DNA of 39,706 bases from Janibacter limosus NBRC 16128 (lineage in GTDB: Bacteria; Actinomycetota; Actinomycetes; Actinomycetales; Dermatophilaceae): NCBI RefSeq assembly GCF_001570985.1, contig NZ_BCSS01000034.1, positions 1 to 39,706 of the forward strand. The letters are read 5' to 3'. A program made the position numbers and the translations under genes. Under the pieces are notes generated by a model. It was given only the letters and a program-made list of their open reading frames with translations. It ran no database searches and was not told the origin of the DNA. This document shows, in pieces, positions 3,044 to 36,694 of the stretch; position 1 is the stretch's first letter; each line of letters opens with the position of its first letter.

Positions 3044-6000
3044 TCAGTCGTCGGGGTCGAGTAGCGCCCGGATGTCGGTCGAGGTGATCGCCCCCGACAG
3101 GGCTTCGCCCTCGTCGACGACCCGCTCGAAGAGGTCCCGCTTGCGTTCCTGCAGGGCCAGCACCTTGTCCTCGATCGTCCCGGTCGAGACGAGCCGGTAG
3201 ACCATGACCGGCCGGTCCTGACCGATGCGATGCACCCGGTCGATGGCCTGCGCCTCGGCCGCGGGGTTCCACCAGGGGTCGAGGATGAAGACGTAGTCGG
3301 CCTCGGTGAGCGTCAGCCCGACTCCGCCGGCCTTGAGGCTGATGAGGAAGGCGGTCTGCTCGCCCTGCTTGAAGCCGTCGATGACCTCGGGCCGGTCGGT
3401 CGTCGAGCCGTCGAGATAGCTGGTCGTGATGCCCTCGGCGGCGAGGCGATCGCGGACGAGGCCGAGGAATCCGGTGAACTGGCTGAAGACGAGGGCCCGA
3501 TGCCCCTCGACCGCCAGCTCGCGCAGGTGCTCCACGAGCACCTCGATCTTGGCCGAGGCGCCCTGACCCAGCAGGTCCGCGTCGACGAGCCCGGGGTCGA
3601 GGCTCAGCTGACGCAGCCGGGTGAGGGAGGCGAGGATCGCCACGCGGTTGCCGTCCGGGTCCTCCAGGAGGCCGAGCACTCGCTTGCGCTCGCGCTGCAG
3701 GTGGCGGTCGTAGACCCGGCGGTGGGTCGGCGTGAGGTCGACGGGCAGGACCTGGACCTGCTTGGGCGGCAGGTCGAGCGCCACCTGCTCCTTGGTGCGC
3801 CGCAGCATGAGCGGACGGATGCGACGACGTAGCCGATCGAGGAGCTCGGGCTGCGCCCCGGACTCGATGGGCTTGCGGTAGAGGTCGGCGAAGCGGTCGC
3901 GCCGCGGGTAGAGACCGGGCGCCGCGAGCGCGAAAAGGGACCACAGGTCCATCAGCGAGTTCTCCAGCGGAGTCCCCGTCACCGCCAGGACGAAGGGGGT
4001 GGACAGTCCCCGGAGCGCCTGGTGGGTCTTGGACCGGTCGTTCTTGACGAACTGCGCCTCGTCGAGGATCACCCCTCGCCACTCGACCTCGGTGAACTGG
4101 TCGGCGTCGATGCGCAGCACGGCGTAGGAGGTGACGACGAGGTGCGCCCCCTCGACGGACTCGCGCACCGTGCTCCCCCGCCGCTTGTGGGTGGATCCGA
4201 GGGTGCGCACGTCGAGGTCGGGGACGAATTTCGCCGCCTCGCTCGCCCAGGTGCCGACGACGCTCGTGGGGGCCACGACGAGGACCGGACGATCGAGGTC
4301 ACCCGCCGCGTGGGCCCGGGCGATCAGCGCGAGCGTCTGCACGGTCTTGCCCAGACCCATGTCGTCGGCGAGCACGCCGCCGAGGCTGGCGTCCCAGAGC
4401 GTCGTCAGCCAGTGGTACCCCTCGAGCTGGTAGGGGCGCAGGGTCGCTCCGAGGGACGTGGGCACCGGCGGCGCCGGCAGGACCTCGATCTCGCGGAGGG
4501 TCTCGACGCTGGTCCGCCACTCGTGCGCGCGGTCGATCTCGATGTCACCGAGGTCGGACAGCTCGTCCCAGAGGTCGACCTGATAGCGACTCAGACGAAC
4601 GTGGCCGGCCGCCGGCTCGGCGAGCTCCCGGGCCTCCTCGATGAGCGCCCGCAGGTCGGCGAGGACGGGGTGGTCGAGACGAAACCACTCGCCGGTCTCC
4701 AGGTGCATGAGCTCGTCGCCGCGCACGAGCGCCTCGAAGAGCGGCTCGAAGGGAACCTCGACATCACCGATGGTCACCGACACGTGCAGGTCCAGCCAGT
4801 CGGATCCGCCGGCTGCGTCGCTGGCACCGATCGCGATCTGCGGCTCGTCGACGAGCTCCTCGTAGACCGGCAGGTCGTCGTCGAGCTCGACGACCACGCG
4901 CGGATCGTCGTCGAGGCGCGGCACGACCTCGGTGAGCACGTGGACGGCGACGGTCCCGCGCAGGGTGAGCGTCGGTTGCAACCGCCACCGGGTGCTGCCC
5001 TGGACCCGCGTCGTGGCACCGGGGATGGCGTCGAGCGCCTCGATCCCCATGAGCAGCGCCTGCTCCCCCCGGGTGTCCCGTGGGGCACTGCCCCCCGCGC
5101 CGGCGCCCACGACGTGGCTGCGCGCTCCGACCGTGTAGATGAAGCCGAGCTCGAGCCGGACGCCGTGACCGGCTGCTCGCACGCGCAGGTGCAGTCGCGG
5201 TGGCTCCGGCTCGGGCAGGTCGACGCTGCCGTCCGACGAGATGACCGTCAGCCGCTCCCGTAGGCGTGGCAGATAGAGGGTGAGGAAGCGATCGACATCG
5301 CCCTCGGGGATCTCCAGCCCGCGGGGTCGGTCCACGAGATCGGCGACATCCGGGTCGAGCGGGGCGACGAAGGGGGTGAGCACCAGGACGCCCCCTCGGG
5401 TGACAGCCACACCGTGGCGCGGCCGTCCGATGAGCTGGATCTCCTCGAGATCGGGGCGCTGACCGCCATCGTCTGCCCCAGTGCCCTCGACGAGGGGCTG
5501 CAGGAGGAGCCCGTCGCCCGCGCGCACTATGTCGACGGCCACCTCGACGGGAGCGTCGTCGAGCAGCGCCGGCTCACCGGCCTCGCTGCCGACGAGAGCG
5601 ACACCCGCGTCACGCACGCGTCGCAGGAGTGGCCACACGTCCGGACCGAAGTCGTCGAGGTGCAGCGCCGTGGTCTCGACCCTGTAGTAGGCAGGCCCTC
5701 CGCCAGTGCTCCTGTCGTGCAGCTCGACCAGCGATGCGAGCATCGCGCGATGGCGCTCGAGGACCTGGCCACGACCGGGACTGCGCGCGGGCTGGCGCAC
5801 CGTGCTCCATGCGGTGTTCTTGGCCCAGTGCCCCGCCTTGGTGCGTTGGCTGGGGCGCAGACGGATCCGCGGCTCCCCGTGCCGACTCCAGGTGTCGCGG
5901 GGGGCGATGACACTCTCGACGATGAGCGCCAGGGGAGCTCCCTGGTCGAGCCGCTCGGGCATCGGGTCAGCGGTGAGGGTGGCCAGTGCCTCCTCCCACG

Positions 6001-6346
6001 AGGCAGTCACCGGCTCGTCGCCACCGAGGGCAGCGCGCACGGTGAGGATGACGGCCACGGCGTGCTTGCAGTCCGTGGCCACCGGGCAGCTGCAGCGCGC
6101 GCTCCACTCGAGGACATCGTCCTTGGGGTCGCTGTGCTGCGAGATGATCGTCTGGTAGCTCTGTGAGCCGGATCCGCGCACCTTGGCCACGACGACCCGG
6201 CCACGGTTGAGCGTCGCGATCTGGGTGACCATCTCTTGCTCCGCATAGGCGGAACCCCGCTGCAGGGAGCCGGCGTCGAGCGCCCCCTCGAGGCGCTCAT
6301 CCGTCAGCGTGCGCACCCATGTCGCGGAGGCAAGGTCCCAGACCAC
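3044..6346 (-). CDS. SWIM zinc-finger SNF2-family helicase
   Basis: An 1100-residue Swi2/Snf2 ATPase. Near the N-terminus a SWIM zinc finger (C85, C87, C93, H95) suggests DNA or protein binding; a long middle region of unclear fold follows. The motor has Walker A DDMGLGKT near residue 665, box II DEAQ near 761 (Q rather than H), VTGTPLENS, and C-terminal helicase motifs LKAGGVGLTLTEAD and DRVHRIGQD. Such proteins translocate on double-stranded DNA and remodel protein-DNA complexes; the bacterial role is usually unknown. It starts with GTG and is convergent with the acyl-CoA ligase, 39 nt apart. No helicase motif is missing. Confidence 0.9.
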   Translation of the reverse strand: MVWDLASATWVRTLTDERLEGALDAGSLQRGSAYAEQEMVTQIATLNRGRVVVAKVRGSGSQSYQTIISQHSDPKDDVLEWSARCSCPVATDCKHAVAVILTVRAALGGDEPVTASWEEALATLTADPMPERLDQGAPLALIVESVIAPRDTWSRHGEPRIRLRPSQRTKAGHWAKNTAWSTVRQPARSPGRGQVLERHRAMLASLVELHDRSTGGGPAYYRVETTALHLDDFGPDVWPLLRRVRDAGVALVGSEAGEPALLDDAPVEVAVDIVRAGDGLLLQPLVEGTGADDGGQRPDLEEIQLIGRPRHGVAVTRGGVLVLTPFVAPLDPDVADLVDRPRGLEIPEGDVDRFLTLYLPRLRERLTVISSDGSVDLPEPEPPRLHLRVRAAGHGVRLELGFIYTVGARSHVVGAGAGGSAPRDTRGEQALLMGIEALDAIPGATTRVQGSTRWRLQPTLTLRGTVAVHVLTEVVPRLDDDPRVVVELDDDLPVYEELVDEPQIAIGASDAAGGSDWLDLHVSVTIGDVEVPFEPLFEALVRGDELMHLETGEWFRLDHPVLADLRALIEEARELAEPAAGHVRLSRYQVDLWDELSDLGDIEIDRAHEWRTSVETLREIEVLPAPPVPTSLGATLRPYQLEGYHWLTTLWDASLGGVLADDMGLGKTVQTLALIARAHAAGDLDRPVLVVAPTSVVGTWASEAAKFVPDLDVRTLGSTHKRRGSTVRESVEGAHLVVTSYAVLRIDADQFTEVEWRGVILDEAQFVKNDRSKTHQALRGLSTPFVLAVTGTPLENSLMDLWSLFALAAPGLYPRRDRFADLYRKPIESGAQPELLDRLRRRIRPLMLRRTKEQVALDLPPKQVQVLPVDLTPTHRRVYDRHLQRERKRVLGLLEDPDGNRVAILASLTRLRQLSLDPGLVDADLLGQGASAKIEVLVEHLRELAVEGHRALVFSQFTGFLGLVRDRLAAEGITTSYLDGSTTDRPEVIDGFKQGEQTAFLISLKAGGVGLTLTEADYVFILDPWWNPAAEAQAIDRVHRIGQDRPVMVYRLVSTGTIEDKVLALQERKRDLFERVVDEGEALSGAITSTDIRALLDPDD

Positions 6347-6509
6347 GGCTCAGCTCGCGGGGGACGCAGGGGGCGGGATCGGCATGTCGTCCACCTTAGG
6401 CGCGGGAGGTGTCAGCCCCTGTGGAGACCCAGCGGCCTGTGGAGAGGAAGCCCACCACCTCGGACGCTGTGGACCAATCGGGGTCGGAGGTCAGCCCCAG
6501 CGACCCGCC

Positions 6510-7040
6510 TCAGCCGACCTGCTCGTTCATCGACGGGTGGCTCGAGCACTCGCTGCCGAAGCGGACGGTCGTCTTCAGGTCGTTGGTCCGGTACGACACG
6601 AAGAAGCCGGCGGCGGACTCCGCATTGATCCCGGACCCCTCCCGCACGGTGTTGCCGGGTCTGTAGTTGGTGACCTCCATGCCCCTCGCCTTCAGCAGCG
6701 AGCTCATCCGCTTGATGTCAGCCGGGCCGTCGGTGGTGGGCCCGGACAGGAGCATCAGGAGGAGCTGGCGGCTGTCCGGGTCCGAGCTGCAGGCCTTGGG
6801 GTTGAACCAGTCCCGGTCGTCCGGGCTGAAGGGGGTCGTCCTGTCCAGATAGGTCCAGTCGCCACCCGCGGCCTCGGTGATCTCGCCGATCTGGGTGTAG
6901 AAGTCCTCGCGGACGATTTCACCATCCTTCTGGCTGGTCGACGGGGACGGGCTGCCGCTCATGACAGGGCCCAGGCCACAGGCCGCCAGCGACAGGGCCG
7001 CGGCGAGACCGACCAGTGCACGGGTGAATCGCGCCGTCAT
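6510..7040 (-). CDS. Putative lipoprotein
   Basis: A 176-residue secreted protein. The start at 7040 gives a signal peptide MTARFTRALVGLAAALSLAAC whose lipobox LAAC marks lipidation, so the mature protein should be anchored to the outer face of the membrane. It is followed by a Ser/Pro-rich spacer, and the remainder is a compact domain with no family I recognise. Its start codon overlaps the stop of the upstream DinB/MDMPI-like gene (ATGA), so the two are translationally coupled. A start at 7094 would put a non-signal leader ahead of the lipobox and is less likely. Confidence 0.7.
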   Translation of the reverse strand: MTARFTRALVGLAAALSLAACGLGPVMSGSPSPSTSQKDGEIVREDFYTQIGEITEAAGGDWTYLDRTTPFSPDDRDWFNPKACSSDPDSRQLLLMLLSGPTTDGPADIKRMSSLLKARGMEVTNYRPGNTVREGSGINAESAAGFFVSYRTNDLKTTVRFGSECSSHPSMNEQVG

Positions 7041-12986: not shown

Positions 12987-14363
12987 TCACACCCCGGCGC
13001 GCTCCCGCTCGGCCCACGCTGCGTAGCCACCGACGAGATCGGTCACCTCGGCGTGACCCCGTGACCGCAGCAGGCTCGCGGCGACCGAGGAGCGCCAGCC
13101 CCCGGCACAGTGGACGAGCACCGGCCGCTCGGCAGGCAGCTCACGGTGACGACGGGCAAGCTCGGCCAGTGGGATGTGGATGGCCCCGGGGATGAGCTGA
13201 CCGCCCTCGCGCTCGCCGGCATTGCGCACGTCGAGCACGACTGTCTGGTCGGCCAGCTCGTCCCAGCCGGTGACCTCGACGCGCTCGACCGAGACGACGG
13301 CGTCGGGGACCTGTGCCAGCGCGGCCGGCCCACCTGCGACGTGGCCGATGACGGTGTCGAAACCGATGCGCGCCAGCCGGAGCGCCGCCTCCGCGTGCCG
13401 ACCGGGCTCGGCGAGGACGAGGATCTCGTCGCCGTGATCGAGGACCATCCCCGCCGTCTCGGCGAAGCGACCGTCGAGTCCCACGTTGAGCGAACCGTCG
13501 AGGTGGCCGGTGGCGAAGTCCTCCGGGGATCGGGTGTCGACGACGACGGCCCCGCCCTCGATCGCCGCGCGCACCTCGGCGGGGGTGAAGGGGACGACGG
13601 TCTCGTCCGGGTCGAGCAGCTCGCGCTGACGCAGGTTGAGCGCCGCGTCGACCTGGAAGTACGGCGGCGCGGAGGGCTGACCGGTGGTGACCATCCGGAC
13701 GAACTCGTCCACGGGCATCGCTGCGGCGAAGGGGTTGGTCGCGCGCTGGGCCCCGATGGTGGACTCGAGCTCGTCGGACAGGCCCCGACCGCAGGACGAG
13801 CCGGCGCCGTGGGCGGGCATGACCTTCGTCGCGTCGGGCAGCGTCAGCAGCACATCGTGCAGCGTGCTGTACATGGCCTCGGCCAAGGACTGGGGCGTCG
13901 ACCCGTCGGAGACGACGAGGTCGGGCCGGCCGATGCCGCCGATGAAGAGCGAGTCGCCGGTGAGGACCGCGTGGGGGTTGCCGTGCTCGAGCACGAGCAC
14001 GCTGATCGACTCCCAGGTGTGGCCGGGCGTCTCGAGGATCTCGAGGGTGACCTCGTCACCCAGCTCGATGCGGTCCCCCTGCGCGAGGGGCCGCACCTCG
14101 AACTCGGCCCGCTCGGCCGCGGTCGGCCCGTAGCCGATCCAGGCGCCGGTCGCGGCGGCCAGCTCGAGGTGACCCGCGACGAAGTCGGCGTGCACGTGCG
14201 TGTTGATGACACCGACGATGTCGAGGTCGTGCTCCCGCGCTTCGGCGAGGTAGTCGCTGATGTCGCGTCGCGGGTCGACCACGACGGCCTTGCGGCTGCC
14301 CTCGTCGGCGATGAGGTAGGAACCGTGCGAGAGGCAGCTGAGGTAGTACTGGGTGAGGATCAT
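12987..14363 (-). CDS. MBL-fold persulfide-dioxygenase-like protein fused to two rhodanese domains
   Basis: A 458-residue protein. Residues 1-250 form a metallo-beta-lactamase fold with DPRRD and THVHAD (H56, H58, D60; the usual last His is Phe61). Two rhodanese domains follow: the first (about 265-345) lacks a catalytic cysteine, the second (about 365-458) has HCAGGWRS with the cysteine. This is the layout of CstB/BlhR-like proteins, which oxidise persulfides and pass sulfane sulfur. GAAGGAGC precedes the start. It is the last gene of the cassette 1 operon, 62 nt after tauE, and is likely induced through the CstR operator at 15512. Confidence 0.88.
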   Translation of the reverse strand: MILTQYYLSCLSHGSYLIADEGSRKAVVVDPRRDISDYLAEAREHDLDIVGVINTHVHADFVAGHLELAAATGAWIGYGPTAAERAEFEVRPLAQGDRIELGDEVTLEILETPGHTWESISVLVLEHGNPHAVLTGDSLFIGGIGRPDLVVSDGSTPQSLAEAMYSTLHDVLLTLPDATKVMPAHGAGSSCGRGLSDELESTIGAQRATNPFAAAMPVDEFVRMVTTGQPSAPPYFQVDAALNLRQRELLDPDETVVPFTPAEVRAAIEGGAVVVDTRSPEDFATGHLDGSLNVGLDGRFAETAGMVLDHGDEILVLAEPGRHAEAALRLARIGFDTVIGHVAGGPAALAQVPDAVVSVERVEVTGWDELADQTVVLDVRNAGEREGGQLIPGAIHIPLAELARRHRELPAERPVLVHCAGGWRSSVAASLLRSRGHAEVTDLVGGYAAWAERERAGV

Positions 14364-14425
14364 CGAGTCGCTCCTTCGGGGATGCGGGGTGTGGTGGTCA
14401 TGGGGCACGTCCGGAAGGGGGTGGG

Positions 14426-15235
14426 TCAGGCCAGGAGTGCCGGCAGGGACTGCGTGGCGGTGAAGGCGGCGATGACGAGCACGAGGACCGCGAAGGCTTG
14501 TGAGAGTCGAGCCGCCGGAAGCCGGTTGGCGACACGGCTGCCGAGGAGGCTGCCGACGACGGCCACCGCGGCAAAACCGACGATGAGGGGCCAGTCGAGG
14601 TCACCTATGCCCTGCTGCGCCCGGGCGGCCAACGCCGTCGCGCTGTTGATCGCGATGACGAGCAGGGAGGTGCCGACAGCCGCGGGCATGGTGAAGCCGA
14701 GGACGAGCACCAGTGCCGGGACGAGCACGAAGCCGCCCCCGACACCGAGGAACCCGGTCAGCAGGCCGACGAGAGTTGCCGCGACGACCAGCTTGATCAG
14801 GCGCGGGCAGGCGCAGGTCAGAGGGCGCACGGTCAGGATCGGCTCGTGGGGACCGAGGTCGGCACTCCCCCGGGACTCGGGGCGACTGCGCCGCAGCATC
14901 AGGACGGCCACCACGACCATGAGCGCGGCGAAGACGGTCATCAGGACCTCACCGGGCACCGCCCGGGAGGCCGCCGACCCGGCGAACGAGCCGGCCGTCC
15001 CCAGCAGACCGAAGGCCACCCCCTGCCCAAACCTCACTCGCTGCGCACGGTGGTGCGCCGGCAGGGAGAGGAGGGAGGTGATGCCCACGATGAGCAGTGA
15101 GCTGGTGGTCGCGATGACCGGGTCCTGTCCCAGGACGTGAACCAGGGCGGGGACGGCGAGGATCGACCCTCCTCCGCCGAGGGCACCGAGCGCGAGGCCG
15201 ATGACCAGGCCGAGGGGGATGACAGCAAGGGGCAC
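14426..15235 (-). CDS. TauE/SafE-family anion exporter, cassette 1
   Basis: A 269-residue polytopic membrane protein with about eight hydrophobic helices and the Gly-rich repeats GLALGALGGGGSILAVP and LLTGFLGVGGGFVLVP that mark the TauE family. Family members move sulfite, taurine-derived sulfonates or other sulfur anions; beside MBL-rhodanese and CstR genes, sulfite or thiosulfate export is the best inference. A GTG start is used, 13 nt after the 59-aa gene, so they are co-translated. A near-identical paralogue is at 33734-34543. Confidence 0.9.
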   Translation of the reverse strand: MPLAVIPLGLVIGLALGALGGGGSILAVPALVHVLGQDPVIATTSSLLIVGITSLLSLPAHHRAQRVRFGQGVAFGLLGTAGSFAGSAASRAVPGEVLMTVFAALMVVVAVLMLRRSRPESRGSADLGPHEPILTVRPLTCACPRLIKLVVAATLVGLLTGFLGVGGGFVLVPALVLVLGFTMPAAVGTSLLVIAINSATALAARAQQGIGDLDWPLIVGFAAVAVVGSLLGSRVANRLPAARLSQAFAVLVLVIAAFTATQSLPALLA

Positions 15236-15248
15236 GGCGCCGGGTGGA

Positions 15249-15428
15249 TCAGCCGCGGCCGAAGAGGCGGGCGAGCGGGTTGCGGGAGGCGGCGGCCCCC
15301 TTCGCCGGAGCGGAGTGTCCGGGGCACCGCTGGCTGCCCGGCACTCCCTTCATGACCTGGTCGACGTGCTGGCCGCAGCCGGCCCAGCTGGTCTTGCCGC
15401 ACTGACGGCAGGTTGTTTGACGGCACAT
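15249..15428 (-). CDS. 59-residue Cys-rich protein, cassette 1
   Basis: A small protein with CRQTTCRQCGKTSWAGCGQH and, later, QRCPGH: six Cys with one or two His arranged like a zinc ribbon or thiol-storage site. The C-terminus is RNPLARLFGRG. It is almost the same as the protein at 34625-34804, which shows strong selection. A CAGGAG site precedes the ATG. It is the first gene read leftward from the CstR operator, so expression should be the most direct readout of CstR. Its role is unknown; a zinc/persulfide carrier or partner of TauE or MBL is possible. Confidence 0.75.
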   Translation of the reverse strand: MCRQTTCRQCGKTSWAGCGQHVDQVMKGVPGSQRCPGHSAPAKGAAASRNPLARLFGRG

Positions 15429-15500
15429 GGGGATCTCCTGGAGCTGGGGAAGGGGGTGGGTCAGCTGGCGTGGCCACGGCAGCTCGCGCTGTGGCCACCG

Positions 15501-15530
15501 TGGACAAATTAATACCCCCGGGGGTATGGT
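15501..15530 (+). promoter_or_regulatory. Rightward promoter of duf302-cstR, cassette 1
   Basis: TGGACA (15501-15506) and TATGGT (15525-15530) are spaced by 18 nt, and the palindromic operator lies wholly in this spacer and -10. A bound CstR would exclude RNA polymerase. Confidence 0.5.
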
Positions 15531-15535
15531 GTCAA
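15509..15535 (-). promoter_or_regulatory. Leftward promoter of the 59-aa/tauE/MBL operon, cassette 1
   Basis: On the minus strand TTGACA (15530-15535) and TATTAA (15509-15514) are spaced by 15 nt, a short spacing. The same operator fills the spacer. The -35 matches consensus perfectly; the -10 is fair. Confidence 0.45.
15512..15527. promoter_or_regulatory. CstR/CsoR-family operator, cassette 1
   Basis: ATACCCCCGGGGGTAT is a perfect 16-nt palindrome with the C5G5 core typical of CsoR/CstR binding sites. It sits between two divergent gene sets, one of which encodes a CstR-like protein. A variant with one central change stands at 36225. Confidence 0.85.
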
Positions 15536-15573
15536 CACGGTCGGACAGGCCGCACGACACAGGGAGAGACGAC

Positions 15574-16274
<701 letters not shown>

Positions 16275-27084: not shown

Positions 27085-27937
27085 ATGAGATTCGATGACT
27101 TCTTCGGGGAGGGTCTCGATTCGGCAAGCCCTTGGGGTTCGTCCCGTACCACGGCGATCAGGATGGATTTGGTGCGCCAGCTCGCGGATGGCCCGTTGCC
27201 CGGCGATGACCCGTTGGCAACCGCAAATAGCGCTTACCCAGTTCGTACGCGGCCAGTACAACTCCTACGGTACTGACGGCAGGCAGCAGATTAACGACGT
27301 GGAATCGCGCGAGGTTCTCCGGTCACTGCGAGCCGTCCTGCGGCGTCAGGGAGTCGAGTTTGATCCGCAGTGGAGCGACTTCCCCTCCTTCCGCACCTAT
27401 TGGAACGCGCACGAGGGTAGAGGTAGCTGGCAGGCCCGCCGCGACATGTTGGCTGATCTGTTCGATCCAGTACTTGCAGCCCTCGAGACCGCTCAGGACA
27501 GGGCATCGGGAAATGAGGTTGCTCTACCCGTGTCGCCCCGTAGTGAACTGGGCTGGCCCGCCGTGGATGAGCACATTGAGCAACTCCGGCAACGGTTCGC
27601 AACCGCATCGACGCACGTCGACTACAAGGACGTAGGCAACCGCTGTGTCGGCGTCCTTGAGGCCCTCAGCGCCGTCGTCTACGACCCCGCCGTGCACTGC
27701 CCGGACGGCAAGCCTCAGCCCCCGGTGGACAAGACCGACATTCGCATCGGTGCGTACATCGACCAGCGACTTCCGGGCCCCTCGAACGAAGAGTTGCGTG
27801 GCCTCGTGAAGAAGGCTTCAGCACTTTCCCACAAAATGAAGCACTCTCCCCGGGCCGACCGGACTACGACCGGCATCGCCGCCGACGCAGTGATCCTGCT
27901 CGCCAACATCCTGAGGCGTCTGCGCCAGGAGCCATAA
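27085..27937 (+). pseudogene. Frameshifted Abi/HEPN-like gene
   Basis: The N-terminal frame (from ATG 27085: RFDDFFGEGLDS and MDLVRQLADGPLPGDDPLAT) breaks off near 27222-27235, and the sequence continues in the +1 frame with TQFVRGQYNSYGTDGRQQI and a full-length remainder to 27937. The C-terminal part (NRCVGVLEALSAVVYDP to ADAVILLANILRR) is helical, like the ligand- or toxin-type domains of abortive-infection proteins. A downstream restart at 27206 (243 residues) is possible. Explanations are decay, an assembly error or programmed frameshifting; simple decay seems most likely. I cannot name the family surely. Confidence 0.55.
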
Positions 27938-28058: not shown

Positions 28059-29207
28059 ATGGGTTATCGCGCGTTCACGACTGCCGAGTACTCGGCGCTG
28101 AGGCGCCAGCACAACATCATGGTGCTGGTGGGCAACGGCTTCGACATCCAAGTCACCCGGCGCTACGCGTCCCGGTTCTCTCCCCGCTACCCAGCCTTTT
28201 ACTACTACCTGCTGTCTCGCGACTTCGACTCCTCGAACCTTGTGGTTCAGCAGATGGCCGCTGCCAAGGAGGACGGTGAGCAGAACTGGAGTGACGTCGA
28301 AGCAGCGATCGGGCGCCTCATCACACCTGAGGGCGGCTGGCACTCGGCTGACGCCGTCTACGAGGCGACGCTGGCTATCCAAGCAGCATTCTCGGAGTAC
28401 CTGGACCTCGTCGCACCGCCCGCCCTGCTCGCCCGCGTCGGCGAGGATTCAGCGAAAGGCTCCTTAGCCGTGAAGTCAATGGCGGACTTTATTGGGGACG
28501 TCGCCAAGGGGTCTCGGACAGTCGGCTCCTTCGCCTTCCCCGAAGAAACCAACCACTACGACCTTTTCAACTATCTGTTCGTCAACTTCAATTACACGCC
28601 ATTGCTCGACGACTACGTCTTCCGCGACGCCCAGCAGTTCCGACCACAAGCGCACAGGTATGCCGACCGGAACTTCATGTTCCGACCCAACCCAACTAAC
28701 CATCCGGACGGCTACGGAAACCAAGAGACCGGTTGGTCCAGCTATGTCCGCAGCGAGGTCATTCATCCCCACGGACAGCAGCCGATTCCACGGTCGCTGC
28801 TGTTCGGGATGGACGCCCCCGACAACCTCGCCCCGGGCCGCGACCCCAATCGGCAACTCATGAAGCCTTACTGGGCCATGAACCGCATCGAGTACGCACA
28901 CCTGTTCCCCGACACCCGGCTGTTCATCATCTTCGGGTGCTCCCTCGGCGAATCGGACGGCTGGTGGTGGCGACGCATCTACGAAGCGCTGAACCGCCAG
29001 ACCAACGACGGAACGCCCATGAGCGAACTAATCATCTACTGGTGGAGCCCTGTCGCGAGCCCCGCCAGCAGGGAAGAAGTCCTAGGCACCTTCTTCGCCA
29101 GTGTCGCAGCGGCCTTAGACGAACCTAAGCGGGCGAGTGTGGAGGACCGGATCCAGGTCGTGGTCTACTCCGATGAGATCCCGCCGGTCTTCCTCGCCAC
29201 GCCCTGA
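28059..29207 (+). CDS. AbiH-family abortive infection protein
   Basis: A 382-residue protein with LVGNGFDI at 23-30 (the glycine-rich nucleotide loop of AbiH), NFNYT at 176-180, HPHG at 236-239 and FGCSLGESD at 292-300. These four motifs, in this order, define AbiH, a Rossmann-like (SIR2-related) protein that aborts phage infection, perhaps through NAD or another nucleotide. The start at 28059 follows AGGA. It seems full length. The convergent PD-(D/E)XK gene overlaps its last 43 nt. It is the best preserved defence gene in this island. Confidence 0.85.
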   Translation: MGYRAFTTAEYSALRRQHNIMVLVGNGFDIQVTRRYASRFSPRYPAFYYYLLSRDFDSSNLVVQQMAAAKEDGEQNWSDVEAAIGRLITPEGGWHSADAVYEATLAIQAAFSEYLDLVAPPALLARVGEDSAKGSLAVKSMADFIGDVAKGSRTVGSFAFPEETNHYDLFNYLFVNFNYTPLLDDYVFRDAQQFRPQAHRYADRNFMFRPNPTNHPDGYGNQETGWSSYVRSEVIHPHGQQPIPRSLLFGMDAPDNLAPGRDPNRQLMKPYWAMNRIEYAHLFPDTRLFIIFGCSLGESDGWWWRRIYEALNRQTNDGTPMSELIIYWWSPVASPASREEVLGTFFASVAAALDEPKRASVEDRIQVVVYSDEIPPVFLATP

Positions 29208-29974
29208 CATCGACGGCAAAACTCAGCGGACGCCGAGCTCAGGATGAGAAGTTCCTCGCCGAGTTTCCGCGCGGTCAGGCTCTCGCGCGTCATCTTCGTC
29301 TCAACGATGACCCCCACCTCCGGCAGTACGAAGTCGACGCGCGAGTTGGCTCCCGCATGCGAGGGCACGTAGTCCTCTGCCCGCACGTCGTCGAAGAGAG
29401 TCCTGAGGTACGCCTCGACGACGATCTGGAGGTCAGCCTCGTCACTGATGGCTTCGCCGATAGGCCAGTCGGGTGCCCGGCGTTGAAGGGTCGCGAGCAG
29501 TTCGGGCAGACGGCGCAGACACTGGCTGAGGTCGGTGGCCGCAGCCTCCGCGGGCGACGTGTCGGGGGCCACCTCGGCGATCAGCGCACGCTGCCGTTCC
29601 AGCTTCTCGCGGATCTGCGAAAACGGGTGCTGCCAGCGACCCAGAGGGTAGGAACCGTCATCTGCCTGAAGGACATTTGGCTCGCGGGGGTTGTCAAGGT
29701 AGTTAGCGACACCTTGTGAAAACAGTCCACCATCTCGATACTCATCGAGCTTCTTCTGTGACTCAGGCTCCAGCAATCGACGCGCCCGGGCGTGCCACCC
29801 GCGATAGTCGCTGCGCACCGCGGCGACCTCTGCGGGATCCGGCTCGGAGGACCGTACCTGCCAGTCGGCCATGCGCTCTTCCAATGCCTCCGACTCCCGC
29901 ACCAGCGCGTCGAAGGCCTCTGCCGAGTGCCTTTGGATGCTCACGCTCCGCATGTTACTGGCGCGCACGGACAT
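29165..29974 (-). CDS. PD-(D/E)XK nuclease-domain protein, C-terminally truncated
   Basis: A 269-residue protein with a helical N-terminal part (1-180) and a nuclease core SRVDFVLPEV...VETKMTR (D214, E225, K227). Related proteins continue after GEEL with a strand like DIARYQSHP and further core residues. Here the frame turns to SSASAEFCRR and stops inside the abiH end; another frame reads SHPELGVR, showing a small deletion and frame change near 29260. Core strands are lost, so activity is doubtful. The start is uncertain (GTG 30013, ATG 29974 or ATG 29953); no site is convincing. Confidence 0.55.
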   Translation of the reverse strand: MSVRASNMRSVSIQRHSAEAFDALVRESEALEERMADWQVRSSEPDPAEVAAVRSDYRGWHARARRLLEPESQKKLDEYRDGGLFSQGVANYLDNPREPNVLQADDGSYPLGRWQHPFSQIREKLERQRALIAEVAPDTSPAEAAATDLSQCLRRLPELLATLQRRAPDWPIGEAISDEADLQIVVEAYLRTLFDDVRAEDYVPSHAGANSRVDFVLPEVGVIVETKMTRESLTARKLGEELLILSSASAEFCRRCQGVARKTGGISSE

Positions 29975-30112
29975 GCCACGGACACCACCGTCGGCGTTGG
30001 GCAGGTTGACCACGTACGGCCTCGAGCGTCACCAGCTTTGCGTCGCGCCCACCGTCGCGCTCGGAGACGAGGGCGCGTGGAGCGAATCGGGGAGCCTCCG
30101 CCCTCGGCAAGC

Positions 30113-30407: not shown

Positions 30408-30698
30408 GTGAGTGACGGTGGCAGGGGGGGGGGCGCCAACGAGCGCCCTGGGCGTTCGTGGCCTCGTGGGACGGCGACCCAGACAGCAGCGCTACTGCTT
30501 CAGTGCGGCGCAATCCACAGCGGTCAAGCCCGCCTCGATATACTGCGTACCGCGATGGGACGACTTGGTGTTGCGACGCTGAACCGCGAATCGCCTACGT
30601 TGGAAGCATCTTGGTATCCAGAAGCCTTCGATTGGGTTCGCGGCTCGCTAGAAGCTCGGCAACCGTCGCCGAGACTCGAAAACATGGGACCAGGATGA
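30408..30698 (+). CDS. Small protein with a ten-G tract, coupled to the composite nuclease
   Basis: A 96-residue frame from a GTG with a good GGAGGT site 6 nt upstream. Codons 6-9 contain ten consecutive G residues (30424-30433). The stop TGA overlaps the ATG of the nuclease gene (ATGA), so translation would be coupled. No family is recognised, and the codon third-position GC is low compared with the chromosome. One G more (or two fewer) would fuse this frame to the nuclease frame, giving a ~645-residue product. Coding status is uncertain. Confidence 0.4.
   Translation: MSDGGRGGGANERPGRSWPRGTATQTAALLLQCGAIHSGQARLDILRTAMGRLGVATLNRESPTLEASWYPEAFDWVRGSLEARQPSPRLENMGPG
30424..30433 (+). repeat. 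Homopolymer G10
   Basis: Ten consecutive G within codons 6-9 of the coupled small gene. A candidate slippage site, or a spot where sequencing may have miscounted. Confidence 0.8.
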
Positions 30699-32344
30699 CA
30701 GCATTTGACGACACCTCCTACCTATGGAAGGTGTCACTGGACTTCGCGGAAAACGGCCACATTCTCGCGTGGTGGGGCGAGGCTCAGGACGAGACTCTCA
30801 CCCGCCTTATCGACGAGTTCGCATGGCTGTACCCGTGGCACATCTCCGATGCCATCGTCGCTATCACGTCCGATGACGTGGCCGCCGCTTGGCGGGAGCA
30901 GGACCCTGCCTGCCAACGGTATGCTTGGTACAACGTCCTGATGTACTTCGGTGTTGCTCGGGCACGGACAACGGGCCTCGAACACGCGATGCGGCCACCG
31001 GAGACCCTGAACTGCCTCCGGTGTAAGACCAGATTCCGCCAAGATGAGGTGGGCGCGTCTACGGCCCGCAAACTCGGCAAAGTCAGCAACATCCGGTACT
31101 GCCAGGCATGCTGCAGCGCCGCCTTCGCTGGTGGTAGTGATTTGGACGATCTGAGACTCTCGGACGCCGCGATTGCTGACTGGATTCGGGATGTCGCGTC
31201 CCTCACCGGGCTGATCCCGCCGCAGGATTTCTTCAACAATGAGGACTTCCTGGAGGCAGTCTCCGGCGACACCGCCCGGACACAACTACTGGGCCTGGCT
31301 GCGCGGCGGCCAACCGCCAAACGGATCAAGGACGCGTTCGGGTCGTGGCTCAACGCGCTTGCTGTCGCTGGTGTGCTTCCGGACGGAGCGCACCACACCC
31401 GGCGTGGCGTCCGATCTGTTGCTGCCGATGGCCATGTGTGCCTGTCTCTACCCGAGCGCACCATCGATGACTGGCTCTCGGCGTACGGCCTCGACCATGA
31501 GAAGGAGCCTCGCTACCCCGACAGCAACTATCGCGGTGACTGGCGAGTGGGAGGCTCGATCATCGAGTTCTTCGGACTCGCCGGCAATCCTGACTACGAC
31601 GCTCGAATCCAGGAGAAGCGCGAGCTCGCCGAGCGGCACGGCATCGACCTAATCGAGGTCTATCCGAAAGACATGCTGAAGTGGGGCGCAACTCAGGAGT
31701 GGCTGGCGACGCGCCTTGGAATCGACTTGGCGGCACGAGAGCGGCGGATCCTGCCGACGCAGCCGCAGGCCCTGAGCGACACCAAACCAGCGATCCCGAA
31801 GGCGCCTCCGGTCGGCCCCGCGGAGGGATGGTATGCCGACCCGACTGGCCGCGAGGCTTCGCGGTGGTGGGACGGCCGCTACTGGACACAGTTGGTGCTC
31901 GACGCGTCGGGCGACACCTACTCCGACACGCCGTACCCGGAGCGGGACGACCCGGTGAATCATGGAAGCGAGATCGAGGGTCAGCAGACGTGGGAGTTCC
32001 TTTCGAGCACCAAGCTCCCGTGGCCAGGCAAGCCCAAAGGCGCCGAACTGGTCACCCACCTTGAGTTGATGTTCCGCTGCATGGATGCGGTCGAGAATGC
32101 GGCAAGACGCGACGGCTACGGAACCTCCCCCGGGGCATACTCCGAAGCGGCCGGTCACCTCCGGCACGCGCGAAATCATGCTGGCGAGGCGGCGATTCTT
32201 GCCCGTGCACTGCAAACTGGCCTCGGGCCAGGAGCAGGACGCCGTGACATCTCGACGCGGATGGCTGCGATCGATGAGGCGGGCGTCCATCCCAACCCGG
32301 TCGAATCGGGTATGACGGCCCACTATCCTCCGCCAGAGACCTAG
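30695..32344 (+). CDS. Composite zinc-ribbon / HNE-repeat / PD-(D/E)XK-like / DUF2510 protein
   Basis: A 549-residue protein. In order: an N-terminal helical part (1-100); a CxxC...CxxC zinc ribbon (C107, C110, C136, C139); a homing-endonuclease-associated repeat LLGLAARRPTAKRIKDAFGS (199-230); a nuclease-like core RGDWRVGGSIIEFFGLAGNP (D282, E291) with K308 in the next helix and LIEVYP, like the nuclease lobe of some helicases; a DUF2510 motif GWYADPTGREASRWWDGRYW (378-397); and a helical C-terminus. Each part is known, but the combination is not one I know. DNA binding and cleavage against invading DNA is an inference from the domains and from the AbiH and hsdR neighbours. Confidence 0.65.
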   Translation: MTAFDDTSYLWKVSLDFAENGHILAWWGEAQDETLTRLIDEFAWLYPWHISDAIVAITSDDVAAAWREQDPACQRYAWYNVLMYFGVARARTTGLEHAMRPPETLNCLRCKTRFRQDEVGASTARKLGKVSNIRYCQACCSAAFAGGSDLDDLRLSDAAIADWIRDVASLTGLIPPQDFFNNEDFLEAVSGDTARTQLLGLAARRPTAKRIKDAFGSWLNALAVAGVLPDGAHHTRRGVRSVAADGHVCLSLPERTIDDWLSAYGLDHEKEPRYPDSNYRGDWRVGGSIIEFFGLAGNPDYDARIQEKRELAERHGIDLIEVYPKDMLKWGATQEWLATRLGIDLAARERRILPTQPQALSDTKPAIPKAPPVGPAEGWYADPTGREASRWWDGRYWTQLVLDASGDTYSDTPYPERDDPVNHGSEIEGQQTWEFLSSTKLPWPGKPKGAELVTHLELMFRCMDAVENAARRDGYGTSPGAYSEAAGHLRHARNHAGEAAILARALQTGLGPGAGRRDISTRMAAIDEAGVHPNPVESGMTAHYPPPET

Positions 32345-32397: not shown

Positions 32398-33063
32398 TCA
32401 TCGCCGCGCAAGTTGATCGTGTGCCGTTTCATAAAACGCATCAGCCAACGCCACGACGACGCCGTGAGCTCCAGGCCCGTCGCTGAAGAAGTAGTCGGCC
32501 ATGGTGTTGTGGGCGTCCTGGTTGTCGACAACCGCCTCGGTGACGGCCGCCTGGAAGTCCTGCGACTCCATGAACTGCTTCTTCGAGTTCACCTTCGTCT
32601 GGTTCACGAGATCCGGGTCCGCCATCAGGCGCTCGACGAGCCCGTTGACGAACTCACGGATCTGCGATTCTGCGAACGACTCCGCCCCGAACAGATCGTT
32701 CATCTTGTCGATGACGACCTGGAGCGCGACGTACTTCGGGTCCTTCTTCGCGCCCGTGCCAGCGGCGCTGATGCCCTTCAGCTCTCCGTCACCGGTCAGA
32801 GAGATGTCCGTAGACGCGCCCTTGCTGTGTTTGACCCCGACCAGCACCACGTCGGAGAGGTCGACCTCGGCGGACCAGGACTCGTCCTTGATGACCCGCT
32901 CGAGCAAGCGCAGGTAGATCGAGAGCATCTCCATGTACGGGTCGCCGTAGTCGACGATCTGGCTCATGAAGTCGTACATCCGCACGTACGTGGAGACGTC
33001 CTTGCGGAAGAGGTCGAGCTCGTTGAGCAGCACCTTGTCGTCGGTCTCCGGCAGGCTCAGCAC
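32398..33063 (-). pseudogene. hsdR: C-terminal remnant of type I restriction subunit HsdR
   Basis: 221 residues that match only the C-terminal helical domain of HsdR: NELDLFRKDVSTYVRMYDF, YLRLLERVI, then VVIDKMNDLFG and an end region with several helices. HsdR is normally about 1000 residues with nuclease, helicase and this helical domain. Nothing of the first two remains; the frame meets a stop just upstream of 33063, and 31 nt further the rhodanese gene of cassette 2 ends. No hsdM or hsdS is in the window. The gene was probably cut by insertion or deletion at the cassette edge. Confidence 0.8.
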
Positions 33064-33733: not shown

Positions 33734-34543
33734 TCAGGCCAGGAGAGCTGGCACGGCCTGTGCGGCCGTGAAGGCGGCGATGGCCAGCACGAGGACCGCG
33801 AAGGCCTGCGAGAGTCGTTCTGCCGGGAGTCGGTCGGCGACGCGGCTGCCGACGAGGCTGCCGATGACGGCAACTGTGGCGAAGCCGAGGATGAGGGGCC
33901 AGTCCAGTTCGCCGACCCCCTGCTGCGCCCGTGCAGCCAGCGCTGTGCCGCTGTTGATGGCGATGACGAGCAGGGAGGTACCGACTGCCACGGGCATCGT
34001 GAATCCGAGGACGAGTACGAGGGCGGGGACGAGCACGAAGCCGCCACCGACACCGAGGAACCCGGTCAGCAGTCCGACGAGGGTGGCAGCGACGACGAGC
34101 TTGAGCAGGCGCGGGCAGACGCAGGTCAGGGGGTGGAGGGTGAGGATCGGCTCGTGGGGTCCGGTGTCGTCACTCTGCAGTGACCCGCTGCGGCTGCGCC
34201 GCAGCATCAAGACGGCCACGACGACCATGAGCACGGCGAAGACGGTCATCAGGACCTCTCCGGGCACGGCTCGAGAGGCGGCTGACCCAGCGAAGGAGCC
34301 GGCCGTGCCCAGCAACCCGAAGGTCATGCCCTGTCCAAAGCTCACCCGCTGCGCACGGTGATGCGCGGGCAACGAGAGGAGGGAGGTGATGCCCACGATG
34401 ATCAGCGAGCTGGTCGTGGCGGTGACCGGGTCCTGCCCCAAGACGTGCACGAGGGCGGGTACGGCGAGGATGGACCCTCCGCCGCCCAAGGCACCGAGGG
34501 CGATGCCGATGACCAGGCCTAGTGGGATGACAGCAAGGGGCAC
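33734..34543 (-). CDS. TauE/SafE-family anion exporter, cassette 2
   Basis: A 269-residue paralogue of the cassette 1 exporter, with the same length, GTG start and repeats (GIALGALGGGGSILAVP; LLTGFLGVGGGFVLVP). Differences are mostly conservative. The likely substrate is sulfite or thiosulfate made by persulfide oxidation. It is read after the 59-aa gene with an 81-nt gap. Confidence 0.9.
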   Translation of the reverse strand: MPLAVIPLGLVIGIALGALGGGGSILAVPALVHVLGQDPVTATTSSLIIVGITSLLSLPAHHRAQRVSFGQGMTFGLLGTAGSFAGSAASRAVPGEVLMTVFAVLMVVVAVLMLRRSRSGSLQSDDTGPHEPILTLHPLTCVCPRLLKLVVAATLVGLLTGFLGVGGGFVLVPALVLVLGFTMPVAVGTSLLVIAINSGTALAARAQQGVGELDWPLILGFATVAVIGSLVGSRVADRLPAERLSQAFAVLVLAIAAFTAAQAVPALLA

Positions 34544-34624
34544 GATGGGCTCCTAGTGGAGTTGATGGGTGAGTCCTGCGGGGGCGCAGAATCAGGGACC
34601 TCCCCCCGCCGGACTCCAGGCGGC

Positions 34625-34804
34625 TCAGCCGCGCCCGAAGAGCCGGGCGAGCGGGCTGCGGGAGGCGCCGCCCCCCTTCGTCGGGGTGGAGTGACCGGGG
34701 CAGCGCTTGCTGCCGGGCACCCCCTTCATCACCTGGTCGACGTGCTGGCCGCAACCGGCCCAGGTGGTCTTGCCGCATTGACGGCAGGTCGCTTGACGGC
34801 ACAT
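34625..34804 (-). CDS. 59-residue Cys-rich protein, cassette 2
   Basis: The paralogue of the protein at 15249-15428, equal in length and different at only about ten positions; all cysteines and the C-terminus SPLARLFGRG are kept. The first residues are MCRQATCRQCGKTTWAGCGQ. Conserved Cys pairs suggest zinc or sulfane-sulfur binding. It follows the MBL-rhodanese gene by 30 nt, in one operon. Confidence 0.75.
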   Translation of the reverse strand: MCRQATCRQCGKTTWAGCGQHVDQVMKGVPGSKRCPGHSTPTKGGGASRSPLARLFGRG

Positions 34805-34834
34805 TGGGTCTCCTTGGAGTGGGGTGACGGTGGG

Positions 34835-36211
34835 TCAGTTGGAGGAGGTCATCGGCAGGCCGGCATCGCCGGCGTTGCCGAAGGCGTCGTCGACGAGGAC
34901 AACCTGGTGGTCGTGCGCCGCGAGGACCGACGCGGCGATCGAGGCCCGGTAGCCGCTGCCGCAGTGGATCCACAGCTCGCGCTGCGGGATCTCCTCGATG
35001 CGCTCGAGCAGTTCGCCGATCGGGACGTTCTGCGCACCCTCGATGTGGCTGTTCTCGTACTCGCCAGCGAGGCGGACGTCGAGGATGTGCACGGGGCGGT
35101 GGTGACGCACCTGGGACAGGTCGGCGAAGGCGGCCGTCTCCAAGGTGCCGAGTGGGCGGTCGGTCCAGTCCTCGGGCCCACCGGTAGCTGCGCCGGCAAT
35201 CCGGTCCAGACCGATCCGCACCATCTCGCGTTGGGCCTGCGCGACCTGCTCGGAGCTCTCACCGAGCAGGGTGACCTGGGCATCCCAGGGGATGAGCCAC
35301 CCGAGATACGTGGAGAACTGACCGTCGAGGCCAAAGTTCAGCGTCCCGGTGGCGTGACCGGCCGCGAAGGCGGTGCGGGTTCGCAGGTCGACGACCCACT
35401 CGCCGGCGTCGATGCGCTCCGCGAGCGTGTCCTTGTCGGCCTGCTCGGGGGCGCTCAGGTCGGCCTCGCTCGGTCCGGCAGCGTTGGCCGGGGACATGTG
35501 GACGTAGTAGGCCGGGTAGGCGTCCAGGCCGGCGAGGGTGTCGGCGACCCACTGCTCCTGGTCCTGGGTGAGCGCGGGGTTGTTGCGCTTCTCCTGACCG
35601 ATGGTCGATTCGGTGGAGCCACCGGTGGACCCGGAGGAGCAGAAGGAGCCGAACCCGTGCGTCGGCAGCACCTCGGCGTGCTCGGGCAGCTCGTCTGCCA
35701 GTCGGTGGATCGAGGCGAACTGGTGGCGCACGAGGGCGCCCGTGTGCTCCTGGCCGAGCAGGTCCGGTCGCCCCGTGGCACCGAAGAGCAGCGAGCCCCC
35801 GGTGAAGACGGCCGAGGCCGTGGCACCGGAGTCGGTGACCGTCTCCACGGCGTAGGAGAGGTGGGTGAAGGTGTGGCCCGGGGTCGCGATGGCACGCACG
35901 CGCATCGTCGGAGAGATCTCGACGACGTCCCCATCGCGAATGGACTGACGGTCGAAGGAGACCTCGTCCTCAGCGTTGACGTGGTACCGCGCGCCGAGGC
36001 GGCGAGCGAGGGCCAGACCCCCGGTCACGTAGTCGTTGTGGAGGTGGGTCTCGAAGACGTCGGTGATTCGCACGCCGGCCTCCTCAGCGACCGCGAGCAC
36101 ACGGTCGATGTCTCGCTGTGGGTCGACGACGAAGGCGACGTCGCCGTCGTGGGCGAGGTAGGAACGGTCGCCCAGGCTCGGGGTCTCGATGGTCATGATC
36201 GTGGGTTCCAT
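34835..36211 (-). CDS. MBL-fold rhodanese protein, cassette 2
   Basis: A 458-residue protein, same length as the cassette 1 protein but clearly divergent. The MBL domain has DPQRD and THLHND (H56, H58, D60, then Tyr where His is usual), the first rhodanese domain has no catalytic cysteine and the second has HCGSGYRAS. It probably oxidises persulfide to sulfite, with a final rhodanese step. The start at 36211 is preferred; ATG at 36196 is an alternative and neither has a strong ribosome site, so near-leaderless translation is possible, since the promoter lies 11 nt upstream. Confidence 0.88.
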   Translation of the reverse strand: MEPTIMTIETPSLGDRSYLAHDGDVAFVVDPQRDIDRVLAVAEEAGVRITDVFETHLHNDYVTGGLALARRLGARYHVNAEDEVSFDRQSIRDGDVVEISPTMRVRAIATPGHTFTHLSYAVETVTDSGATASAVFTGGSLLFGATGRPDLLGQEHTGALVRHQFASIHRLADELPEHAEVLPTHGFGSFCSSGSTGGSTESTIGQEKRNNPALTQDQEQWVADTLAGLDAYPAYYVHMSPANAAGPSEADLSAPEQADKDTLAERIDAGEWVVDLRTRTAFAAGHATGTLNFGLDGQFSTYLGWLIPWDAQVTLLGESSEQVAQAQREMVRIGLDRIAGAATGGPEDWTDRPLGTLETAAFADLSQVRHHRPVHILDVRLAGEYENSHIEGAQNVPIGELLERIEEIPQRELWIHCGSGYRASIAASVLAAHDHQVVLVDDAFGNAGDAGLPMTSSN

Positions 36212-36213
36212 GG

Positions 36214-36243
36214 GTGACAAACTAATACCCCTGGGGGTATAGT
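36214..36243 (+). promoter_or_regulatory. Rightward promoter of cassette 2 (toward cstR)
   Basis: GTGACA (36214-36219) and TATAGT (36238-36243) are 18 nt apart with the operator in between. TATAGT is close to consensus. Confidence 0.5.
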
Positions 36244-36248
36244 GTCAA
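36222..36248 (-). promoter_or_regulatory. Leftward promoter of the cassette 2 operon
   Basis: On the minus strand TTGACA (36243-36248) and TATTAG (36222-36227) are spaced by 15 nt and share the operator, as in cassette 1. Confidence 0.45.
36225..36240. promoter_or_regulatory. CstR/CsoR-family operator, cassette 2
   Basis: ATACCCCTGGGGGTAT equals the cassette 1 palindrome except for one central C to T change. It sits in the spacer of both divergent promoters. Confidence 0.85.
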
Positions 36249-36285
36249 CTGCAGCCACCAAGGTCGTGCGCTCGATGGGAGACCC

Positions 36286-36694
<409 letters not shown>

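Follow-up and report, generated by a model that had tools for sequence, protein, structure and literature searches.

A putative single-gene defence nuclease of Janibacter limosus that joins a zinc ribbon, a T7-endonuclease-I-like core and DUF2510

Introduction

Single-gene nucleases are among the simplest of immune systems, and how they spare the DNA of their host is an open question. In Shedu, as set out in the excerpted text of one account, a PD-(D/E)XK nuclease nicks DNA that is held by an end-binding N-terminal clamp, and the N-terminal domains vary from one system to another (PMC12904381). A second source, likewise in excerpt, treats PDCs as putative candidates arrived at through guilt-by-embedding, most of those it discusses still awaiting validation (PMC12988326). 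PDC-S69 is one such single-gene candidate represented in the PADLOC library, and a literature search on it returned nothing usable, as did searches on CxxC motifs combined with PD-(D/E)XK nucleases and on Holliday junctions in anti-phage defence.

The active site of PD-(D/E)XK nucleases of the T7-endonuclease-I-like kind consists of a glutamate on a helix, followed by an aspartate and then by an E-x-K motif. We take the catalytic residues of T7 endonuclease I to be E20, D55 and E65 together with K67, and the nuclease domain of Shedu is SduA (DUF4263).

Here we describe a gene, P0001, carried on a window of 39,706 bases that constitutes an entire contig of the 3.38-Mb genome of Janibacter limosus NBRC 16128. 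For its protein we worked out the order of the domains, the conservation of the core, the purifying selection acting on it, the rarity of the family and its closeness to defence genes, and we compare it with the systems named above.

Results

Extent and domain layout of P0001

P0001 is a whole gene on the forward strand (30695..32344), an uninterrupted ORF of 549 amino acids equal in extent to its homologues P0002 and L015, the latter having 77% identity. An earlier note, made from the DNA letters of this window, had given the same ORF, and its coordinates and residues proved correct on re-reading of the sequence. The frame stays open 5' as far as a GTG at 30458, and the ORF of the 77% homologue begins merely five codons 5' of the position equivalent to ATG-30695. 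Scans for promoters and terminators yielded zero sites, and the repeats that flank the gene are short.

The N-terminal domain (residues 1-100; 30695..30994, on the forward strand, as are all parts of the gene given below) aligns with the 77% relative and with a relative of 40% identity, and partly with a 364-residue Streptomyces form; it has no match in Pfam. It is followed by a zinc ribbon, C107-x2-C110 ... C136-x2-C139 (31013..31111), which the note had also read and whose two CxxC pairs are present and invariant in 7/7 and, in the core alignment, in 8/8 members. A degenerate homing-endonuclease-associated repeat at residues 205-226 (31307..31372) corresponds to positions 31-52 of the 54 in profile PF18780, with an E-value of 0.062 and 14.1 bits against the curated Pfam cut-off of 26. 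The repeat had been placed at residues 199-230, an assignment that falls below threshold in P0001 itself and is backed by relatives in which the repeat lies just N-terminal of the core. Of these, L064 (E 0.0027) and L035 (E 7e-5) stay below the cut-off, whereas in L036 two stretches together reach 35.1 bits and exceed it. Seven other relatives scanned alongside these three gave no match to the repeat.

The nuclease core spans residues 236-330 (31400..31684) and is supported by conservation, profile comparison and a match to the PADLOC model PDC-S69. DUF2510 occupies residues 378-399 (31826..31891), where PF10708 scores 30.1 bits, above its gathering cut-off of 24 (E 4e-7, and E 3e-8 in P0002), in agreement with the 378-397 reported earlier. 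The remaining C-terminal region comprises residues 403-549 (31901..32341). We considered whether it serves as a module of other proteins and found this unsupported, clear matches being confined to proteins of the DUF2510 architecture. Weak matches (E 3e-4 to 0.01) came from ten genomes other than its own and those of the two Nostocoides; three of them, inspected by eye, were judged to lie in antisense or unrelated frames. A Curtobacterium plasmid gave a partial match (35% covered, E 7e-3).

Comparison of the complete gene with that of the 77% relative (L015) gave a dN/dS of 0.21 overall, 0.17 in the nuclease, 0.21 in DUF2510 and 0.17 in residues 461-549, with weaker constraint in the zinc ribbon (0.34) and the linker (0.32). 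By these ratios the accessory parts are being maintained and are not in decay. The corresponding ratios against the 40% relative were left unused, synonymous sites in that pair being near saturation.

Conserved core and similarity to T7 endonuclease I

In an alignment of 31 rows, 30 of which span the core, seven residues are invariant in all 30: E254 (31454..31456), H268, D282 (31538..31540), E291 (31565..31567), G294, Y301 and K308 (31616..31618). The rows were recruited by the family model, so that this conservation is to be read as conservation within the family; a few are near copies, and two come from a single viral contig. A nuclease-like core built on D282, E291 and K308 had been proposed, and it is supported both by this invariance and by profile similarity to T7 endonuclease I; E254, which the proposal did not name, is equally invariant.

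The top match of the core profile in the PDB was T7 endonuclease I (E 0.09, weak by itself), with E254, D282 and E291 paired with T7 residues 20, 55 and 65; a PDB search with the single P0001 sequence gave a chance match only. When a profile of 29 family cores was aligned by hhalign with a profile of six T7-endonuclease-I proteins, the probability was 75.7% and the score 34.4, as against 8.9 for the reversed profile, 19.2 for the best of 60 single proteins and 19.5 for the best of 200 column shuffles (0/200 reaching 34.4); single sequences are an unequal control for a six-row profile, a defect that the column shuffles repair. The same family cores scored 11.1 against a single Vsr and 27.4 against the DpnII-type nuclease that neighbours P0001 in the window, and with these values the comparison favours the superfamily at large over T7 endonuclease I in particular.

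The position of T7 K67 is occupied in P0001 by F293, and the lysine of the E-x-K motif is thus replaced. K308, further along the chain, is a candidate displaced catalytic lysine: the lysine has apparently moved, and K308 would then take over from the residue at the K67 position. We assign the core provisionally to the T7-endonuclease-I-like PD-(D/E)XK nucleases, its similarity to T7 endonuclease I being moderate, and the active-site residues suggest that P0001 probably cuts DNA.

Relatives and their distribution

Full-length matches to P0001 were present in two of 58 related genomes, its own counted, and seven more had partial matches, mostly around DUF2510. The full DUF2510 architecture was found at four loci only (the window, L052, L010 and L054), with DUF2510 identified by Pfam in two of them and by alignment in the other two. 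L052, from Nostocoides sp. F2B08, a member of the same family as the host and of a genus that NCBI lists under the Intrasporangiaceae, encodes the 77% relative and is the nearest intact one; L010, on a Hoyosella plasmid, encodes a protein with 40% identity over 97% of the length; and L054, from Nostocoides jenkinsii, is a copy whose 5' part is missing and which adjoins a transposase gene, IS30-like by eye.

Two features of these loci were noted in passing. In L054 (8250-14525) two outward-pointing transposase genes with identical 349-residue products enclose the truncated copy together with a DUF3800 gene, perhaps as a composite element. In L010 (9629-10078) a gene of 149 amino acids, with no Pfam match and no counterpart among the called genes of the window, overlaps the stop codon of the homologue from Hoyosella, with which it may be co-translated.

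Other relatives are differently built. Short forms that end after the core occur in Streptomyces (364 aa), in another actinomycete (369 aa; 46% identity over 293 residues) and in a Chloroflexi MAG (359 aa). Longer proteins from Nocardioides, Cellulosimicrobium and other actinobacteria have the zinc ribbon and the core with different N-terminal regions, and some of them show a weak C-terminal helix-turn-helix match. Six records of relatives are plasmid-borne. The core profile matched at least 16 of 186 genomes at the family level with E <= 1e-6 (nine at 1e-30 or better and seven weaker) and, with E <= 1e-10, at least 2/396 at the level of the order, at least 8/394 at that of the class and at least 7/396 at that of the phylum, all of these being lower bounds that include the genome of origin. 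The nuclease family is rare and patchy, and its N- and C-terminal modules are variable.

Phage-borne relatives and the tree of cores

Phage records searched with the whole P0001 protein gave no match. Among viral contigs, the full-length alignment retrieved no locus, the core alignment two (L035 and L036) and a third alignment just one of these two. Both viral cores carry equivalents of E254, D282, E291 and K308, and L035 has HNH-type matches in addition to its repeat. On L036, two separate ORFs on the forward strand (3613-4473 and 5659-6558) each match the core with its E, D, E and K residues, so that two related endonucleases may be encoded on this contig.

A tree of 29 cores gave the DUF2510 group a single origin (support 93/85; 92% of bootstrap trees). 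A set of 12 rows (98/98) unites this group with the 369-residue form, with four forms that belong to other classes of the phylum and with the three rows from phages; the program flags these phage rows as long branches, and their position in the set is unsure.

Genomic neighbourhood in the window

P0001 is flanked on one side by a DpnII/MboI-type nuclease, itself next to an AbiH-family gene, and on the other by a relic of a type I restriction subunit. The AbiH-family gene (28059..29207, forward strand; its ORF open from 27981) matches PF14253 with E 5e-16. The DpnII/MboI-type nuclease gene (29165..30013, reverse strand) matches PF18742 with E 1e-18 and the PADLOC model Aga_Helical-REase with E 5e-14. 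The relic, a C-terminal piece of HsdR (32398..33063, reverse strand), has no Pfam match and shares 82.5% identity, across 212 residues, with a protein of Rhodococcus annotated as a type I restriction endonuclease; it resembles a Rhodococcus plasmid copy, with the N-terminal side missing and a rhodanese gene in its place. These are the neighbours that the earlier note had listed (AbiH, PD-(D/E)XK and an hsdR relic), and all three hold up under these comparisons.

No methyltransferase was recognised beside P0001, either by Pfam or by inspection of the window genes, and no tRNA gene was found across the window. G+C content is 62-65% over most of the 27-33 kb interval, compared with 67-70% in the next 3 kb downstream and 64-68% upstream (24-27 kb); because the upstream value is not clearly different, composition marks no sharp island.

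Several further arrangements in the window deserve record. The AbiH and DpnII-type genes are convergent, their 3' ends overlapping by 43 bases (28059-30013). Directly upstream of AbiH, a forward-strand gene (27206-27937) encodes a C-terminal end that by eye resembles abortive-infection proteins, and it returned no above-cut-off Pfam match (tested as 27095-27937). Similar gene sets lie some 20 kb apart at 12987-16274 and 33734-36694, each with a metallo-beta-lactamase/rhodanese protein, a sulfite-exporter-like membrane protein and a CsoR-like regulator (membrane protein and regulator were identified by eye, with Pfam used for one protein), as if the set had been duplicated or acquired twice.

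Neighbourhoods of relatives

At E <= 1e-10, 178 PADLOC models were matched by the 143 genes of 16 target neighbourhoods, against 12 by the 140 genes of 13 control regions; the counts are of models and not of genes, and redundant methyltransferase models inflate the figure of 178. The 16 neighbourhoods remained from 24 gene-called loci after seven without a called target were left out and L014, a duplicate of L054, was dropped; L012 and L013 fall outside the count. Genes were called with a home-made caller, and for one window gene that it had called wrongly (29357-29719) the DpnII-type gene was substituted manually ahead of the count. Controls were arbitrary regions of 13 target genomes (140 genes in 13 regions used, from 164 in 15), and L010, L011 and L064 had no control from their own genome.

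Individual loci illustrate what lies behind these numbers. The 9 kb upstream of the gene in Nostocoides sp. F2B08 encode DrmA (E 4e-120), DrmB (3e-64), a C5 methyltransferase (1.5e-169), a type II endonuclease of the REase_II family (2.5e-74) and Vsr (2e-14). Avs3a is the second gene downstream of the 369-residue relative; the 364-residue Streptomyces relative is flanked by a divergent N-6 DNA methylase and, at its opposite end, by EndoVII and PycTM; and a type I HsdR gene adjoins the relative at L053. Among seven of the more distant loci, 61 genes matched 26 PADLOC models, including SoFic, PtuA and several candidates, with one gene apiece among the matches listed (25 of the 26). A NACHT protein near the relative at L058 had no PADLOC match at 1e-5.

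Some neighbourhoods are of an ordinary kind: L060 includes 2-oxoglutarate dehydrogenase, L067 includes a thioesterase, and L061 and L066 look by eye like ordinary chromosome. The idea of a defence island put forward in the note is thus sustained by the excess over controls and by Drm and Avs3a genes near relatives, and qualified by those distant relatives that sit among housekeeping genes. Housekeeping contexts throughout, which the note had held would count against its reading, were not what we found: these four loci have them, and others lie near defence genes. The window, L052, L054 and L010 have no neighbouring gene in common (blastp, 1e-5), and because of this no obligate partner shows.

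Discussion

We propose, with the chances in our judgement about evenly divided, that P0001 is an autonomous metal-dependent DNA endonuclease, a one-gene effector of defence against the DNA of phages or plasmids. The earlier suggestion of a single-gene restriction or anti-phage effector fits what we observe, no partner being shared by the four DUF2510 loci and no adjoining methyltransferase being recognised. In outline, the N-terminal domain, the zinc ribbon and the remnant repeat would hold or recognise DNA, the T7-endonuclease-I-like core (E254, D282 and E291, with K308 as the displaced lysine) would cut it, and DUF2510 with the C-terminal region would control activation or contact with a partner. 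The target would be some feature of invading DNA, such as a branched or end structure, a modification or a replication state. Specificity would probably derive from such a feature and not from host methylation, because no methyltransferase was recognised adjoining P0001 in the window, and recognition of structure, modification or replication state seems more likely than classical restriction.

Other readings deserve to be weighed against the same observations. P0001 might be, or might recently derive from, a free-standing homing endonuclease, a selfish element that spreads by cleavage at a rare site and merely accumulates in defence islands. The phage proteins L035 and L036 join repeats (and, in L035, HNH-type matches) to the same core as that of P0001, phage rows group with the DUF2510 proteins in the set of 12 rows, subject to the long-branch warning, and the gene is patchily distributed, all of which speaks for this reading. 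The four DUF2510 loci, however, with no neighbouring genes in common, reveal no common site, a comparison of genes and not of empty sites; the repeat in P0001 is degenerate; the gene lies between other genes and not within one; and purifying selection acts on the DUF2510 and C-terminal region that have been added to it. On balance we think this reading unlikely. We also rate as quite improbable that the protein supplies the nuclease of a restriction-modification pair and relies on a methyltransferase that is borrowed or encoded at another place in the genome. The N-6 DNA methylase divergent from the 364-residue Streptomyces relative, the C5 methyltransferase at L052 and the HsdR relic adjoining P0001 would speak for it, but among the four DUF2510 loci a methyltransferase was seen, in the stretches examined, at L052 only, where it already accompanies REase_II and Vsr; none is annotated within 8 kb at L010, in a gene table that is incomplete, and none was recognised at L054 (by eye) or beside P0001 (by eye and by Pfam).

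A role in host repair or recombination, as a junction resolvase-like nuclease with no part in defence, would suit the fact that the profile search found the closest solved relative in T7 endonuclease I, a junction resolvase, as well as the housekeeping contexts of some relatives. Against it speak the lack of a full-length match in most of the related genomes searched, the plasmid-borne relatives and the enrichment of defence genes nearby, and we hold such a role to be equally improbable. Finally, DUF2510 or the C-terminal region could sense infection and release the nuclease on host and phage DNA alike, making P0001 an infection-triggered suicide effector; a single gene with a separate conserved C-terminal module, the AbiH gene among the neighbours and Avs3a near a relative are compatible with this, and we nevertheless give it very little credence.

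If the defence reading is right, P0001 may belong to a new family of single-gene defence nucleases, whose T7-endonuclease-I-like core with its displaced lysine, also present in homing-endonuclease-like proteins of phages, would have been recruited to bacterial defence islands and there have acquired interchangeable modules for sensing or targeting, DUF2510 then serving immunity, possibly as an activation switch. We offer this broader view only tentatively and with more doubt than conviction; a literature search on DUF2510 found no paper giving the domain a role in immunity or as an activation switch. Were it true, DUF2510 would gain a testable role and homing-type nucleases would be linked with immunity. 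The natural variety of head and tail modules around a single conserved core offers a route to locating specificity, and there is a real chance that this nuclease family merits a name of its own.

How the protein stands to described systems can be stated with some precision. T7 endonuclease I has the same order of E, D and E over the 84 aligned columns, and differs in that the lysine of P0001 is not at E+2 and in that P0001, a bacterial gene, adds a zinc ribbon, the repeat, DUF2510 and the C-terminal region. The phage proteins L035 and L036 have the repeat followed by the same core with all four equivalent residues, but no DUF2510 match, clearer repeats and other N-terminal parts, and they are located on viral contigs. 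The nuclease end of HEAT_CxxC_PDDEXK (PDLC01150) is matched by the Streptomyces (E 1e-5) and Chloroflexi (E 1e-3) short forms, whereas P0001 has no match to that model at E <= 1. Shedu, so far as the excerpted account describes it, is the nearest working analogue: P0001 may work alike in outline, and yet it is not a member, neither Pfam nor PADLOC giving a match to Shedu at E <= 1, and has a zinc ribbon and DUF2510 instead. PDC-S69 (PDLC05067), the single-gene phage defence candidate, has the C-terminal nuclease in common (P0001 E 4e-6; P0002 3e-10; L016 6e-11), the match being limited to positions 179-278 of 289 (182-271 for the match at E 4e-6) and leaving DUF2510 and the C-terminal region of P0001 without counterpart; at E <= 1e-8 its profile matched one of 119 genomes, which was not the genome of origin. 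That the architecture is not a named defence system, as had been claimed, accordingly stands for the whole, which fits none of the named systems in PADLOC, NCBIfam or Pfam, the libraries searched, and not for the nuclease, which is already represented in the PADLOC candidate PDC-S69.
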